Positions 16,442 through 64,000 of a DNA stretch of 64,000 bases are shown here, in pieces. Numbering within the stretch: the stretch's first letter is position 1; each line of letters begins with the position of its first letter. The notes beneath the pieces were generated by a model that saw only the letters and a program-made list of their open reading frames with translations, ran no database searches and was not told the DNA's origin. The DNA comes from Candidatus Altimarinota bacterium (GTDB lineage: Bacteria; Patescibacteriota; Gracilibacteria; UBA1369; LOWO2-01-FULL-3). A program made the position numbers and the translations under genes. Location of the stretch: positions 1 through 64,000 of the forward strand of contig JAESSS010000036.1 in NCBI GenBank assembly GCA_016763975.1, read 5' to 3'.

Positions 16442-17158
16442 ATGTCAGAAGAACGTAGAAAACGGGTACTAAAAGCCATAATTAAACATTTCGTAGATAC
16501 TGCTGAACCAGTGGGATCCAACACTATTTTGGTAAGTTACAAGTTTCACGTCTCCCCTGCCACTATCCGCAACGACATGATGACTTTGGAAAAAGACGGT
16601 TACATTTCACAACCACACACTTCCGCCGGACGTATTCCTACTACAAAAGGATATCGTTTATTTGTCGATGAAATGGCTGACTATAAAAAAGCACGAATTG
16701 AGGCGAAAAAAGCACTAACAGTCATTCGTGAAAAACATAAAGTAGAAAAAGTACGCGAACTACTACACGAATCCGTAACTTTGCTGGCTAGAGCCACAAA
16801 TTCAGTATCATTTGCCACAACTCCAGACAATCCGCGCACATTCTTCCTCGGAATGTCCAACGTACTGAAACAACCGGAATTTTCTCAAAACACTGCACGA
16901 GCATCAGAAGTAATCGAAGTTTTGGAAAAACACGACAATTTCGTAAAGACCTTACAAGACCTACACACCACCAAAACAGTACGATGTTTCATTGGTGAAG
17001 AAAATATACTTCCACAAATCAAATCTTGCTCTATAATCGTCACCGAATACGAAAAAAATGGCTTCAAAGGATACATCGGTGTCCTCGGACCACAACGCAT
17101 GAACTACGCCTACAACATCGTATTACTAGAAGAAATTAAAAAATTACTCGAACAATAA
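16442..17158 (+). CDS. hrcA: Heat-shock repressor HrcA, short form
   Basis: The 238-residue protein has the HrcA winged-helix N-terminus (ILVSYKFHVSPATIRNDMMTLEKDGYISQPHTSAGRIPT) and the C-terminal signature GYIGVLGPQRMNYAYNIVLL. Typical HrcA is about 340 residues, so much of the central dimerisation region is missing. It represses chaperone genes by binding CIRCE, and CIRCE elements are present before this gene and before dnaK. The stop overlaps the grpE ATG by one base (TAATG). Confidence 0.93.
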   Translation: MSEERRKRVLKAIIKHFVDTAEPVGSNTILVSYKFHVSPATIRNDMMTLEKDGYISQPHTSAGRIPTTKGYRLFVDEMADYKKARIEAKKALTVIREKHKVEKVRELLHESVTLLARATNSVSFATTPDNPRTFFLGMSNVLKQPEFSQNTARASEVIEVLEKHDNFVKTLQDLHTTKTVRCFIGEENILPQIKSCSIIVTEYEKNGFKGYIGVLGPQRMNYAYNIVLLEEIKKLLEQ

Positions 17159-59025: not shown

Positions 59026-59074
59026 TTGACTTATTTACGGTTTTTCCATAAGATTCCTATGTACCGCTACATAG
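59026..59074 (+). promoter_or_regulatory. trp operon promoter with candidate TrpR operator
   Basis: TTGACT (59026-59031), exactly 17 bases and TAAGAT (59049-59054) form a strong promoter whose -10 ends four bases before the trpR ATG, so trpR mRNA should be leaderless. A perfect palindrome CTATGTA-CCGC-TACATAG (59057-59074) covers the start site and start codon. Its position is ideal for autorepression by TrpR. The sequence differs from the E. coli trp operator, so binding is only a proposal. Confidence 0.65.
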
Positions 59075-59340
59075 AAACACTACTTATGCCTGCAAAAGAC
59101 CTAGCCGACGCCATTGTCCAGATCAAAGATCGCAAACTCGCCAAAGAGTTTCTGAAAGATCTTTTGACCCCTCAAGAAAGGGAAGAGATGGAGGCGCGCA
59201 TCAAATTGGTAAAAATGTTATGTAAAGGAACGCCGCAAAGAAAAATTGCAGAAAAACTGAAAATATCTCTCTGCAAAATCACTCGTGGCTCCCGCGAAGT
59301 GAAGTACGGAACTGGAGCATTCAAAAAACTATTATCATGA
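59059..59340 (+). CDS. trpR: Trp operon repressor family protein TrpR
   Basis: The 93-residue protein shows LLTPQEREEMEARIKLVKMLCKG and the helix-turn-helix TPQRKIAEKLKISLCKITRGSREVKYG, the ITRGS motif being typical of TrpR. With Trp bound it should repress its target. I take ATG 59059; a TTG at 59026 is the -35 box instead. It is the first gene of a trpR-trpL-trpE-trpGDCF-aroF unit, and its TGA overlaps the leader peptide ATG. Confidence 0.88.
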   Translation: MYRYIETLLMPAKDLADAIVQIKDRKLAKEFLKDLLTPQEREEMEARIKLVKMLCKGTPQRKIAEKLKISLCKITRGSREVKYGTGAFKKLLS

Positions 59341-59390
59341 TCAGAACAAATACAACTTGGTGGAATTGGAATCAAAAGAGTCGCTTTTGA
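59337..59390 (+). CDS. trpL: trp leader peptide TrpL
   Basis: ATG 59337 overlaps the trpR TGA. The 17-codon frame reads MIRTNTTWWNWNQKSRF, with three Trp codons at 59358-59363 and 59367-59369, and stops at TGA 59388-59390. The stop lies inside the 5' arm of the antiterminator hairpin. This is the layout of a ribosome-mediated attenuator: stalling at the Trp codons leaves that arm free, completing the peptide covers it. Confidence 0.85.
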   Translation: MIRTNTTWWNWNQKSRF

Positions 59391-59439
59391 GGACATTTGT
59401 ATCCGCCAAAAGACGACTCAAAATCTGAGTCGTTTTTTT
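59378..59439 (+). promoter_or_regulatory. trp attenuator: antiterminator and terminator hairpins
   Basis: GAGTCGCTTTTG (59378-59389) pairs with CAAAAGACGACTC (59407-59419) as a 12-bp stem with one bulged A, the antiterminator. The same 3' arm, ACGACTCA (59413-59420), pairs with TGAGTCGT (59426-59433) as an 8-bp terminator with a five-base loop and a T-run (59433-59439). The two structures exclude each other. The trpE ATG follows at 59456. Confidence 0.88.
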
Positions 59440-59455
59440 AATTAAACCCAAAACC

Positions 59456-60928
59456 ATGACAACCCAACTAATCCAAGGCATCTGCCAAATCAAACATACA
59501 GAAGCTACTGAAATCTTTGCCAAAATCAGAGACGAAAACCCAAACTTTCTCTTTGAATCCAAAGACATATCCCCTATTTACGGTCGCCTCAGCCTAATCG
59601 GCATCGATCCAATTCTGCACATCACCGGCAAAGACAATAAGTTTACTATCGAAACTCTAAATGAACGTGGACTACCTTTTCTCAAAGAACTGCACGACCT
59701 GCCTCACGATGAAATCACTAAGACAAAGATCACCGGAACGATAGAAAAAGACAGCAGCGAACTGGAAGAATCCAAACGTAGTAAACGAAAAAACATCGCT
59801 CAGGTCATCCGCCATATTCTAGATAAATTCAAAATAGAAGAACGCACATTATTGGGATTGTACGGCGCTTTTTCATACGATTTTGTCAGACTTTTTGAAG
59901 ATATTGAATCCAAGAATCCAAACACAGACACTCAAGATTTTAATTTATTCCTCTTCGATACTTTCGTCTTCTTTGACCATCTAAAAGAAAAATCCGAAAT
60001 CATCCTCTTCCGCCAAAACCAAGAAGAAATAAGTCGCGATCTCAAAAACATCCAAACAAAACTCGCAACAGAAGCCGAAGAAACAGAATACAAAATCGAG
60101 AACCAAAGTTTCAACTACAACCAAGAACAATATGAAAAAATGGTCGAAACAGCTAAGGAATACTGTAAAAAAGGCGAACTCTTCGAAGTAGTCTTTTCAC
60201 AAAAACTAACAGCAGATTTTAAAGGAGACCCCTTCGCACTCTACCTAAGATATCGTGAAGTAAATCCTTCACCATATTTATTTTACTTTGATTTCCAAGA
60301 CCAACAACTCGTCGGCGCCTCACCAGAAATGATGATCCGTTGCGAAAACAATCAAGTACACCTTCGACCGATTTCCGGCACAGCTAAGCGAGGAACCGAT
60401 CCCATCGCCGATCACGAAAACATGAAAGAACTACTCAACGACGAAAAGGAACGTGCCGAACTCGACATGTTAATCGACCTCGGCCGCAACGACCTCTCCC
60501 GAATCTGCAAAGCCGGAATCAAAATCTCCGACTATCGTTTCGTCGAAAAATACTCCGCAGTAATGCACACCGTCGCCCACCTCACCGGCGAACTTGAAGA
60601 AGAAAACACAGCACTCGACGCCCTCATCGCCTGTGTAAATGCCGGAACACTCACCGGCGCTCCAAAAGTCGCAGCCATGCAATGCATCGAAGAACACGAA
60701 AACCAAAGACGCGACTATTATGGCGGAACCATCGGCTATCTCACTTTTTCAGGTGTAATGGACAGCGGCATAATTATTCGCACCGCTCATATCAAAAACG
60801 ACAAACTAACATTTCAAGTCGGCGCTACTCTCCTATACGACTCAAATCCCGCAAAAGAATATGAAGAAACCCTCAGCAAAGCCGCAGCATTCCTTAACCT
60901 CATCAAATCATGGAAAAAATACTACTAA
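59456..60928 (+). CDS. trpE: Anthranilate synthase component I
   Basis: The 490-residue protein converts chorismate to anthranilate with ammonia from TrpG. The N-terminus keeps a Trp feedback-site motif (FLFESKDISPIYGRLSLIG). The catalytic half has GELFEVVFSQKL, SPEMMIRCENNQVHLRPISGTAKRG, DLGRNDLSRI, AVMHTVAHLTGEL and GAPKVAAMQCIEEHE. It overlaps trpGDCF by 19 bases, so both subunits are made together. Control is expected by TrpR, attenuation and feedback inhibition. Confidence 0.95.
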   Translation: MTTQLIQGICQIKHTEATEIFAKIRDENPNFLFESKDISPIYGRLSLIGIDPILHITGKDNKFTIETLNERGLPFLKELHDLPHDEITKTKITGTIEKDSSELEESKRSKRKNIAQVIRHILDKFKIEERTLLGLYGAFSYDFVRLFEDIESKNPNTDTQDFNLFLFDTFVFFDHLKEKSEIILFRQNQEEISRDLKNIQTKLATEAEETEYKIENQSFNYNQEQYEKMVETAKEYCKKGELFEVVFSQKLTADFKGDPFALYLRYREVNPSPYLFYFDFQDQQLVGASPEMMIRCENNQVHLRPISGTAKRGTDPIADHENMKELLNDEKERAELDMLIDLGRNDLSRICKAGIKISDYRFVEKYSAVMHTVAHLTGELEEENTALDALIACVNAGTLTGAPKVAAMQCIEEHENQRRDYYGGTIGYLTFSGVMDSGIIIRTAHIKNDKLTFQVGATLLYDSNPAKEYEETLSKAAAFLNLIKSWKKYY

Positions 60929-63519
60929 TCGACAGTTTCAACTCATTCACATTCAACCTCGTTGATTATTTTAAACAACTCGGATGCAAAGTCGAGATCC
61001 ACAGAAACACTATGCATCCAGCAGAAATCGAAAATATAAATCCCGACCTCATTGTTTTCTCCCCGGGACCATCCATTCCTTCAAACGCTGGGAACATGAT
61101 GAAAATGATCGAAATGTACAAAGAAAAATATGCAATGTTTGGAGTATGTCTCGGACACCAAGCCTTTATCGAAGCCTTTGGAGGTAAATTGAAATTTATC
61201 GAACCAGTACATGGGAAAAGTTCTGAAGTTGAACATGATGGCAAAGGAATTTTTGCAAACATCCCCCAAAACTTCAAAGCCGGCAGATATCATTCTCTTG
61301 TTGCTGAAGAAGTACCAGATTGTTTCGAAGTCTCAGCAAAAACAGGAGACATCGTCATGGCCATTCGCCACAAAGAGCTGCCAATAATCGGCGTTCAATT
61401 TCATCCAGAATCAGTATTGAGCATGAGAGATGGCAATGGATTCAAATTAATCGCCAACCTGATTTGTGAAAACTTTATCGAAAAAACCGTCGCCAACCTT
61501 ACCACTCCAGAAGAACAAAAAGACTACTTGGAAAACTTAGAAATCACAGCTGAAAAATTAGCAGAATTTGCAAAATCACTACTTCCGGAAAAACTAAACA
61601 TGCCAGAAGCAATCGACCTTTGTGGCACAGGTGGCTCAGGATTAAATCGCATCAACACTTCCACAATCTCAGCCTTCTTAGCCAACCGAGCAGGAGTAAA
61701 AATCGCTAAACACGGCAACAAAGCGGCCAGTGGACGCTTCGGAAGTTTCGATCTATTAGAAGCGATGGAAGTAGACTTCAAAGATCCAGAAAAAGACTTT
61801 GCCCACACAGGACTTGCATTCATCTATGCACGCCAATTCCACCCCGCAATGAAACATTTCGCCGCAGTACGCAAAGAGATTAAAGGCAAAACAATCTTTA
61901 ACCTTCTCGGCCCTCTACTAAATCCAGCCCAACCAGAACGCCAAATAATCGGAGTTTCCAGCAAAGAAGACATGCAAATAATGATCGAAGCTTGCCAACT
62001 TCTCGGCAAAAAACATGTACTCGTCGTACATGGATCAGATGGATTAGATGAAGTCACTCTCACTGGCAAAACTTTTGTAGCAGAACTATTTGAAGGCAAA
62101 ATAAAACACTATGAAATAACTCCAGAAGACTTCGGACTGACACGCTGCGAATTCGAGAAAATAGAAGGCGGAGAGAATCTCAAAATAGCCCAACAGATAC
62201 TTAACGGAGAATGCCAAACACGCCATCTCGATCTTGCACTACTCAACACTGCACTGATTCTACATTTCACTGGCAAAGCAAAAAACTACAAAGAAGCGCT
62301 AGAACTAGCACAAAAACTCGCGATAGCTCCATCAACAAAATCATTCAAAAATGCCCTCAAAAACCGCGCCCTCATTTGTGAATTCAAACGTAAATCCCCT
62401 TCTCAAGGACAACTATCAGAAAAAACTCCTCAAGAAGTCGTCGACTTTTACGAAGCAAACGGCGCAGCGGCACTTTCTATTCTAACCAACAAAGAAAGAT
62501 TTAACGGCTCTGTAAAAGACCTCAGCGTCAAAACAAATCTGCCAATCTTAATGAAAGACTTCATCACAACAAAAGAACAAATTTATGCCGGCAGAAAACA
62601 TGGAGCCAACGCAATTCTACTGATCGCAGCACTACTCGACGCAAAACAAATCGACGAATTTATCATGATCGCCCGCTCGTTAAAGATGCATGCACTGGTA
62701 GAAGTTCACAACAAAGAAGAATTAGAAAAAGTGCTCACTACCAAAGCTGAAATAATCGGCGTCAACAATCGAAACTTAGAAACCCTCGAAATCGACATCC
62801 GCACAGCACTAAAATTGTTACCACTAATCCCAAAAGACAAAATAACCGTCGCAGAAAGTGGCTACAACAAGGACAATATCCACTTCGCACTCGCTGACGC
62901 AGCTTTAATCGGCACTGCACTAATCAAAGATCCAGAAAGCCTAAAAGAGATGAAAGGCAAAATATTCAAAGCCTGTGGCATTCGCACAAAAGAAGCTGCA
63001 GAATTCTGTGAAGCACACAAAATCCCATTAGCAGGACTGAATTTCGTAGCATCATCAAAAAGAAAAATCACTCTAGAACAAGCCAAAGAACTAAGACCAA
63101 TTTTTCAAAACACATTGGTAGCAGGAATATTCCAAAACCAAGATCTAGAAGAAGTGAATCGCATAGCCGCAGAACTTAATCTCGATTTCGTACAGCTTTC
63201 CGGACAAGAATCACCAGAATACTGCGCACAAATCGACAAACCCTTAATCAAAACCATTACTTCCCAAGACCAAAACGATTACAAAGCAGCCCTCTACATC
63301 ATCGACGGCCACAATCCCGGTTCAGGCCAAACCCACGACCTCTCTCTAATCAACATCAAACGACCTTTCCTCATCGCCGGCGGCATCACGCCAGACAACG
63401 CCTCCCGCATCCTCAGCCGCCTCCCAAACTCACTCGGCATCGACGTTGCCAGCGGAATCGAAAGCGACGGCCAAACAGACAATGAAAAAATTTCTAAACT
63501 CCAAAAATCATGCAAATAA
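60910..63519 (+). CDS. trpGDCF: Four-domain TrpG-TrpD-TrpC-TrpF fusion enzyme
   Basis: The 869-residue protein joins four activities. Residues 1-190 are the glutamine amidotransferase TrpG (FSPGPSIPSNAG, GVCLGHQAF, QFHPESVLS). About 200-470 is anthranilate phosphoribosyltransferase (DLCGTGGSGLNRINTSTISA, KHGNKAASGRFGS) with a shortened N-terminal helical domain. About 475-695 is indole-glycerol phosphate synthase (LICEFKRKSPSQG, MKDFITTKEQIY, VNNRNLETLEID). About 695-869 is phosphoribosylanthranilate isomerase (KACGIRTKEAAEF, LDFVQLSGQE, GHNPGSGQTHDLSLI). The frame is intact. Common fusions are TrpGD and TrpCF separately. Confidence 0.95.
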   Translation: MEKILLIDSFNSFTFNLVDYFKQLGCKVEIHRNTMHPAEIENINPDLIVFSPGPSIPSNAGNMMKMIEMYKEKYAMFGVCLGHQAFIEAFGGKLKFIEPVHGKSSEVEHDGKGIFANIPQNFKAGRYHSLVAEEVPDCFEVSAKTGDIVMAIRHKELPIIGVQFHPESVLSMRDGNGFKLIANLICENFIEKTVANLTTPEEQKDYLENLEITAEKLAEFAKSLLPEKLNMPEAIDLCGTGGSGLNRINTSTISAFLANRAGVKIAKHGNKAASGRFGSFDLLEAMEVDFKDPEKDFAHTGLAFIYARQFHPAMKHFAAVRKEIKGKTIFNLLGPLLNPAQPERQIIGVSSKEDMQIMIEACQLLGKKHVLVVHGSDGLDEVTLTGKTFVAELFEGKIKHYEITPEDFGLTRCEFEKIEGGENLKIAQQILNGECQTRHLDLALLNTALILHFTGKAKNYKEALELAQKLAIAPSTKSFKNALKNRALICEFKRKSPSQGQLSEKTPQEVVDFYEANGAAALSILTNKERFNGSVKDLSVKTNLPILMKDFITTKEQIYAGRKHGANAILLIAALLDAKQIDEFIMIARSLKMHALVEVHNKEELEKVLTTKAEIIGVNNRNLETLEIDIRTALKLLPLIPKDKITVAESGYNKDNIHFALADAALIGTALIKDPESLKEMKGKIFKACGIRTKEAAEFCEAHKIPLAGLNFVASSKRKITLEQAKELRPIFQNTLVAGIFQNQDLEEVNRIAAELNLDFVQLSGQESPEYCAQIDKPLIKTITSQDQNDYKAALYIIDGHNPGSGQTHDLSLINIKRPFLIAGGITPDNASRILSRLPNSLGIDVASGIESDGQTDNEKISKLQKSCK

Positions 63520-64000
63520 TCAAAACAATCCACATTGAAGAGGCCAAACCCAAAAAAGCCGCAGCCTATCGCCACGTTAGTCGCGAAATTCAAGCCGAAG
63601 ACAGCACTGTGCAAGTCGGCGACGTTACTTTTGGCGCCGAGAAGCCAGTAATCATCGCTGGCCCATGTTCCATCGAATCCAAAGAACAACTACTAGCAAT
63701 CGCCAAATCCGTCAAAGCCAGCGGCGCGCAAATGCTTCGCGGCGGCGCCTTTAAGCCACGCACTTCCCCCTATTCCTTCCAAGGACTCGGCATAGAAGGC
63801 CTACAAATTCTAAAAGAAGTCAGCGACGAAATCGGCATCCCCACAGTCTCCGAACTAACCTCCATCGACGAACTCCCCCACTTCATCGACACTGTGGACA
63901 TGCTACAAATCGGAGCCCGCAACATGCAAAACTTCGACCTACTCAAAAAAGCAGCACAAAGCCAAAAACCAATCCTCCTAAAACGAGGAATGTCCGCAAC
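63510..64000 (+). CDS. aroF: 3-deoxy-7-phosphoheptulonate (DAHP) synthase, 3' end outside window
   Basis: The 163 residues in the window belong to the AroF/AroA-beta-type DAHP synthase: VIIAGPCSIESKEQLLAIA, MLRGGAFKPRTSPYSFQGLG, VDMLQIGARNMQNFDLL and ILLKRGMSAT. It makes DAHP from phosphoenolpyruvate and erythrose 4-phosphate, the entry to aromatic synthesis. A short N-terminal domain of about 35 residues precedes the catalytic core. The ATG overlaps the end of trpGDCF by ten bases, so aromatic entry is under trp operon control. Confidence 0.93.
   Translation, partial: MQIIKTIHIEEAKPKKAAAYRHVSREIQAEDSTVQVGDVTFGAEKPVIIAGPCSIESKEQLLAIAKSVKASGAQMLRGGAFKPRTSPYSFQGLGIEGLQILKEVSDEIGIPTVSELTSIDELPHFIDTVDMLQIGARNMQNFDLLKKAAQSQKPILLKRGMSA

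Follow-up and report, generated by a model that had tools for sequence, protein, structure and literature searches.

What does a short tryptophan-rich reading frame do at the junction between a repressor gene, trpR, and trpE, the first biosynthetic gene behind it? The junction lies near the end of a 64,000-nt stretch of DNA from a Candidatus Altimarinota bacterium (hereafter the window, meaning the whole stretch that was analysed). The frame opens with an ATG (59337–59339) that overlaps the TGA of trpR (59338–59340), runs for 17 codons (MIRTNTTWWNWNQKSRF) and stops at a TGA at 59388–59390, with TGG codons at 59358, 59361 and 59367. Clustering of this kind (at least three Trp codons within five codons) did not arise once when the spacer was shuffled 2,000 times and has no second instance on the plus strand of the 64 kb. 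UGA is a genuine stop in the source genome, where it terminates 12 of 45 large ORFs; read-through of UGA is thus ruled out. From the sequence features and their conservation described below, we consider it highly probable that the element is a three-segment, ribosome-mediated trp attenuator, translationally coupled to the repressor gene of its own operon.

The features of the locus are given in Table 1. The product of trpR scores 76.6 bits against PF01371, for which the curated cut-off is 27, and is therefore a member of the TrpR family. Downstream of the genes listed, trpB comes next on the same contig, beyond the end of the window. The fusion of trpG, trpD, trpC and trpF into one ORF (869 amino acids) is not the common arrangement: in most relatives checked, these lie in different frames, so that they are separate genes or smaller fusions.

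Table 1 Features of the trp locus in the window (coordinates count from the first nucleotide of the window).
Feature	Coordinates	Strand	Basis
Predicted trpR promoter (TTGACT, 17-nt spacer, TAAGAT)	59026–59054	+	Sequence; position and spacing same in relatives
Predicted TrpR operator CTATGTACCGCTACATAG, immediately 3′ of the −10 box	59057–59074	+	Inference
trpR, TrpR-family repressor, 84 aa	59086–59340	+	Pfam PF01371, E = 1.6e-21
Leader ORF MIRTNTTWWNWNQKSRF	59337–59390	+	Sequence; ATGA overlap with trpR stop
Antiterminator 5′ arm	59378–59389	+	Folding; within leader ORF, leader stop codon over arm end
Antiterminator 3′ arm (A59413 bulged)	59407–59419	+	Folding; overlaps terminator 5′ arm
Intrinsic terminator (stem 59410–59420/59426–59436, T run 59433–59439)	59410–59439	+	Folding
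trpE, anthranilate synthase component I, first controlled gene	59456–60928	+	Pfam PF00425, PF04715
trpG-trpD-trpC-trpF, one fused ORF, controlled gene	60910–63519	+	Pfam PF00117, PF00591, PF00218, PF00697
DAHP synthase (aroF/G type), gene start	63510–64000	+	PF00793

The operator-like site in front of trpR is an 18-bp palindrome. In relatives whose trpR precedes trpE, the same place is in most cases occupied by a promoter together with a GTACTATTACAATAGAAC-like site, and these sites are close to the TrpR motif TGTAcTnGTnnACnAgTACA (PMC9413887). The window's own operator differs from the GTACTATTACAATAGAAC type of its relatives, and its TrpR has the recognition helix KISLCKITRGSRE where the relatives have GVSIGTVSRGSRE; co-evolution of the repressor and its predicted operator is a possible reading of this joint divergence. 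With a predicted promoter and operator before trpR and the attenuator behind it, repression and attenuation would therefore be stacked on one transcript.

Between the leader and trpE, two hairpins compete. The antiterminator has 12 bp, and the stretch containing it folds with −18.7 kcal/mol (z = −5.2), and no shuffle out of 200 gave so low an energy. The terminator, which precedes trpE, has −12.9 kcal/mol and a tail of seven T residues. The two are mutually exclusive, as the 3′ arm of the antiterminator overlaps the 5′ arm of the terminator. The initial annotation had described a 17-codon ORF with three Trp codons that overlaps the trpR stop, ends within the 5′ arm of a 12-bp antiterminator and is followed by a 3′ arm that doubles as the 5′ arm of a terminator, and each of these points is borne out by the sequence. 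Attenuators are recognized by end-product codons in a short ORF before the structural genes (here 3 Trp in 17 codons), by an intrinsic terminator between the leader and the first structural gene and by an antiterminator 5′ arm placed so that a stalled ribosome leaves it free and one at the stop codon covers it; all of these are found at the junction.

To place the locus among its relatives, we searched the order (89 genomes), the class (353 genomes) and a sample of the phylum (380 genomes), which added 24 loci that have a trpE of this type and hence, with the window, gave a set of 25. The switch is present in 16 of them, as a separate Trp leader in 13 and as Trp codons in the C-terminal end of TrpR in three. 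Ten of the separate leaders lie behind trpR and three have no adjacent trpR (L019, L113 and L117); examples in relatives are MIKNLRKNWWNNLIALL, MMTRNNKNWWWINTSEQLRR, MSSISKKTWSWHWFSPKRH and MISLLSTFHDSWWTHSF. No leader behind trpR begins more than about 10 nt from the trpR stop (counted in L003 from the upstream of two possible leader starts), and seven of the ten share the ATGA overlap. Apart from Trp, the leaders have little sequence in common, and four loci (L114, L117, L005 and L020) have only a single regulatory Trp codon. In the three loci with the fused form, which have no separate leader, the TrpR frame itself passes through Trp codons before hairpins of the same type, with protein ends NQVIAWWQPSTIWQMWS (L009), KKLWRLNPSGRLRE (L005) and KNKNWRNTEKSRQSLA (L020). 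In the trpE tree, the sister of L005 and the sister of L009 both bear separate leaders (support 99/98 and 93/90), and the fusion of leader and trpR has therefore probably happened more than once. One locus (L158, G002:C12) has trpR moved behind the trp operon, and the leader and a TrpR-box-like site (GTACTAATGTACTAGTAC) remain before trpE. Among other types of trpE, none of the loci L021–L031 has a Trp leader; in other phyla with other trpE types, five loci have candidate leaders, two of them in Deltaproteobacteria.

The remaining 9 of the 25 loci have no attenuator. These have lost the spacer, and their trpR directly adjoins trpE, overlaps it or sits a short distance away. Five of the nine are from the window's own family, and seven form one moderately supported group in the trpE tree (80/79) together with one leader-bearing locus. 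According to the initial annotation, loss of the leader or of both hairpins in close relatives with conserved flanking genes would speak against the element; this applies only in part, as nine relatives do lack leader and hairpins but have lost the spacer as well.

The arms themselves match locus by locus. The antiterminator reaches a z-score of −2 or lower in 13 of the 16 switch-bearing loci; it is weak in L008 (for which the folded stretch ended inside the loop), L018 and L117. Duplexes between each leader end and the terminator arm of its own locus have a mean energy of −14.28, against −8.42 (s.d. 0.73) when arms are permuted among loci, and none of 20,000 permutations was as low. The same holds for the 5′ and 3′ arms of the terminator (−10.14 for own arms and −6.25 for permuted ones, again 0 of 20,000). 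This locus-specific matching is covariation across lineages that are too diverged for alignment by columns. The geometry matches as well: the first Trp codon lies 17–31 nt before the start of the arm in the 16 loci (20 nt in the window), and in 14 of these loci the stop codon falls within the arm or directly at it. A ribosome stalled on the Trp codons would therefore leave the arm free, whereas one that finishes the leader would cover it.

An ordinary terminator behind trpR, which lowers downstream expression by a fixed amount next to a Trp-rich ORF and a longer pairing that are there by chance, would be a simpler explanation. An operon can use a terminator behind its first gene for plain polarity, and the nine relatives manage without the element. 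We regard this explanation as very improbable, however, because it leaves unaccounted for the Trp leaders of 13 loci, the three TrpR tails and arm matching that no permutation equalled; furthermore, in the same lineage such pairing is absent from the ends of ordinary genes that have a terminator behind them (mean z = −0.12). Overall, the comparison of the 25 loci makes ribosome-mediated attenuation very likely. The initial annotation had proposed this reading and a comparison of trpR–trpE spacers in relatives; the comparison brought out conserved Trp codons and locus-specific arm complementarity in 16 of 25 loci, where leader, antiterminator and terminator recur with matching geometry.

Whether the attenuator has three pairing segments or the four of the Escherichia coli type, with a pause hairpin, depends on what else the leader RNA can form. 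The ribosome-free minimum-energy fold of the window contains two pairings that were absent from the initial annotation, a small and weak local hairpin (59372–59378 with 59384–59390) and a pairing of 59357–59364 with 59402–59409, and either could serve as the pause hairpin of a full four-segment attenuator. When we folded the RNA from the leader start to the antiterminator arm with the partner of the arm excluded, z-scores ranged from −1.4 to 1.3 across the 16 loci (0.9 in the window), no better than shuffles; the 1:2 pause hairpin that defines the E. coli-type Trp_leader was thus absent by this measure, although the pairing of 59357–59364 with 59402–59409 lies outside the folded stretch. No hairpin between leader and arm exceeds chance in any of the 16 loci, and a pause-type hairpin is therefore not conserved. 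We consider a four-segment design unlikely, and the earlier proposal of three pairing segments stands.

Other ways of sensing tryptophan were also considered. In Firmicutes, trp genes are controlled by T-box, TRAP-type protein or riboswitch systems, and the spacer could in principle hold a sensor of this sort. An Rfam scan of the window gave no match to Trp_leader at E-values up to 10, with only chance-level matches; at the same threshold the T-box covariance model had no match in the window and no other fitting RNA family was found. Moreover, the conserved parts of the spacer are the Trp codons and the two competing hairpins, which leaves a different sensor with hardly any probability. We give equally little weight to a leader peptide that acts mainly in trans after its synthesis, as described for peTrpL of Sinorhizobium (PMC7298713), given that little of the leader apart from Trp is conserved and that the three relatives with Trp codons in the TrpR tail produce no free peptide at all.

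On the attenuation reading, the parts and their conservation come from the present loci, and reinitiation, stalling and antitermination are taken by analogy from known attenuators. TrpR would set initiation at the promoter before trpR, and the attenuator would set read-through. As the overlap of the two genes suggests, a ribosome that ends trpR would restart at the overlapping ATG and read the leader close behind RNA polymerase. When charged tRNA-Trp is scarce, it would stall on the Trp codons; the 5′ arm would stay free to pair with the 3′ arm, the terminator would be blocked and trpE transcribed. When tryptophan is ample, the ribosome would reach the stop codon within the 5′ arm and cover it, so that the terminator forms and transcription ends. 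In the fused form of some relatives, translating the repressor would itself be the sensing step. A ribosome that has been translating upstream may already keep pace with RNA polymerase when it reaches the leader, and we hypothesize that the pause hairpin is missing because the sensing ribosome already runs behind the polymerase.

The same design recurs with another member of the repressor family. TrpR-family genes are present in 201 of the 353 genomes of the class, and many lie directly before hisG, which is why we regard these as HisR-like (PMC9413887). The last part of the HisR frame in such loci contains His codons, with protein ends KRKHGHHSHARERGERLASTAA, NAKHHHHPAASRAERMASTVRK and TKNHHHTTHATRGKRPTPTS in one family and AHW(L/F/I)HHG in others. 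Coding sequence just past these codons pairs with the spacer behind the stop codon, and usually this pairing also involves the 5′ arm of a terminator. Pairing from coding sequence to spacer (17–28 bp) was found in 20 of 21 loci, a set made up of 20 with HisR and one stand-alone His leader (L182), with z-scores down to −6.0 and the first pair usually 12–31 nt past the first His codon. In the order, the gene after HisR is often HisS/HisZ-like, and z-scores reach −8.4. Permuting partners among these His loci gave no energy as low as that of the own arms in 5,000 trials, a result that holds in a diverse subset also. His codons, an embedded antiterminator arm and then a terminator are found with HisR genes that precede hisG or hisS/hisZ-like genes in L173, L174, L183, L190, L191, L207, L210, L197, L198, L202, L205, L126, L144 and others. 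Long-tailed HisR relatives that are not next to a his gene have His-rich ‘HRHHR’ motifs; these may be protein motifs and were left uncounted.

We considered that such pairings might be the mere look of terminator-bearing gene ends, and the control of ordinary gene ends (n = 26) rules this out: the mean z-score is −2.78 for HisR loci (n = 35, a few loci counted twice) against −0.12 (p = 2.6e-6). The HisR ORF seems, from these sequence patterns, to act as the attenuator leader of its own operon.

Two individual loci vary this arrangement. A hisR with an embedded antiterminator and a terminator is also found in the genome that the window comes from (L125; G000:C37, around 16899–17153, minus strand; z about −3.8), and the genes downstream resemble a D-Ala-D-Ala dipeptidase and a cyclase-like protein, not his genes. 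In L182, a stand-alone His leader (FSSHRHAHHHSHTREERMASVDLQF) and a terminator precede hisG with no HisR directly in front, and the tail of the leader resembles the HisR tails of relatives.

These observations suggest that in this bacterial class a TrpR-family repressor gene probably doubles as an attenuator leader, its last codons sensing the amino acid (Trp in TrpR, His in HisR) and its 3′ coding sequence supplying the antiterminator arm. One ORF would then make the repressor and, during its translation, measure charged tRNA; the window would be a related form, in which a separate leader ORF is hooked onto the repressor stop codon. ‘Classical’, the label of the initial annotation, fits the attenuator parts but undersells the coupling to trpR, the fusion in relatives and the recurrence with HisR. 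In the open-licence literature, we found no report of attenuation in Patescibacteria/CPR and no paper on a repressor ORF that serves as the leader of its own operon. If correct, our reading extends ribosome-mediated attenuation to the reduced-genome bacteria of Patescibacteria/CPR. A genome of about 1.45 Mb in which ribosomal protein L30 was not found, and sizes of 0.9–1.4 Mb for every genome listed from its large phylum, fit this placement. The reading would also mean that repressor and attenuator, thought of as separate controls, can be combined in a single translational unit or a single ORF, and that RNA function, and not protein function alone, explains some of the sequence at the C-terminal ends of TrpR and HisR here.

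Leader-peptide attenuation has long been documented in Proteobacteria and Actinobacteria and later in some Firmicutes (PMC2965389, PMC9413887), and the attenuator described here is known in function and parts; its arrangement is unlike that of the systems compared. E. coli trpL shares with the window the Trp codons, an antiterminator and a terminator that compete for one arm and TrpR control of initiation. In E. coli, however, trpR is not linked to the operon, the transcript opens with trpL as its first ORF and a 1:2 pause hairpin is present, whereas here the leader overlaps the end of trpR or, in relatives, is fused to it, with no conserved 1:2 hairpin and no Rfam match. The trp attenuators of Corynebacterium and Streptomyces likewise have leaders with double or triple UGG and three complementary segments, but these leaders are described upstream of the first biosynthetic gene and not tied to trpR (PMC1262725).

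The nearest arrangement is trpRBA of Chlamydia, in which trpR comes first and a putative Trp-containing trpL and attenuator lie in the trpR–trpB spacer (PMC7755916, PMC3937554). That trpL is unusually long (59 amino acids), unproven and judged a poor attenuator (PMC7755916), and neither overlap with nor fusion to trpR is described in these two sources (PMC7755916, PMC3937554). Firmicutes, too, have TrpR-family HisR proteins for histidine genes, as well as His leader attenuators; there the attenuators are found in lineages without HisR (PMC9413887), the reverse of the situation here, where the HisR ORF itself appears to supply the regulatory codons and the antiterminator arm. YtgCR of Chlamydia trachomatis, in which a WWW motif in a functional protein links Trp supply to termination (PMC7755916), resembles the fused form in having its Trp codons within a functional ORF. 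Stalling in YtgCR promotes termination of the regulator's own transcript and acts in trans, whereas stalling here is predicted to prevent termination in cis. New, as far as our literature searches go, is a repressor and a leader joined as one translational unit, or as one ORF.
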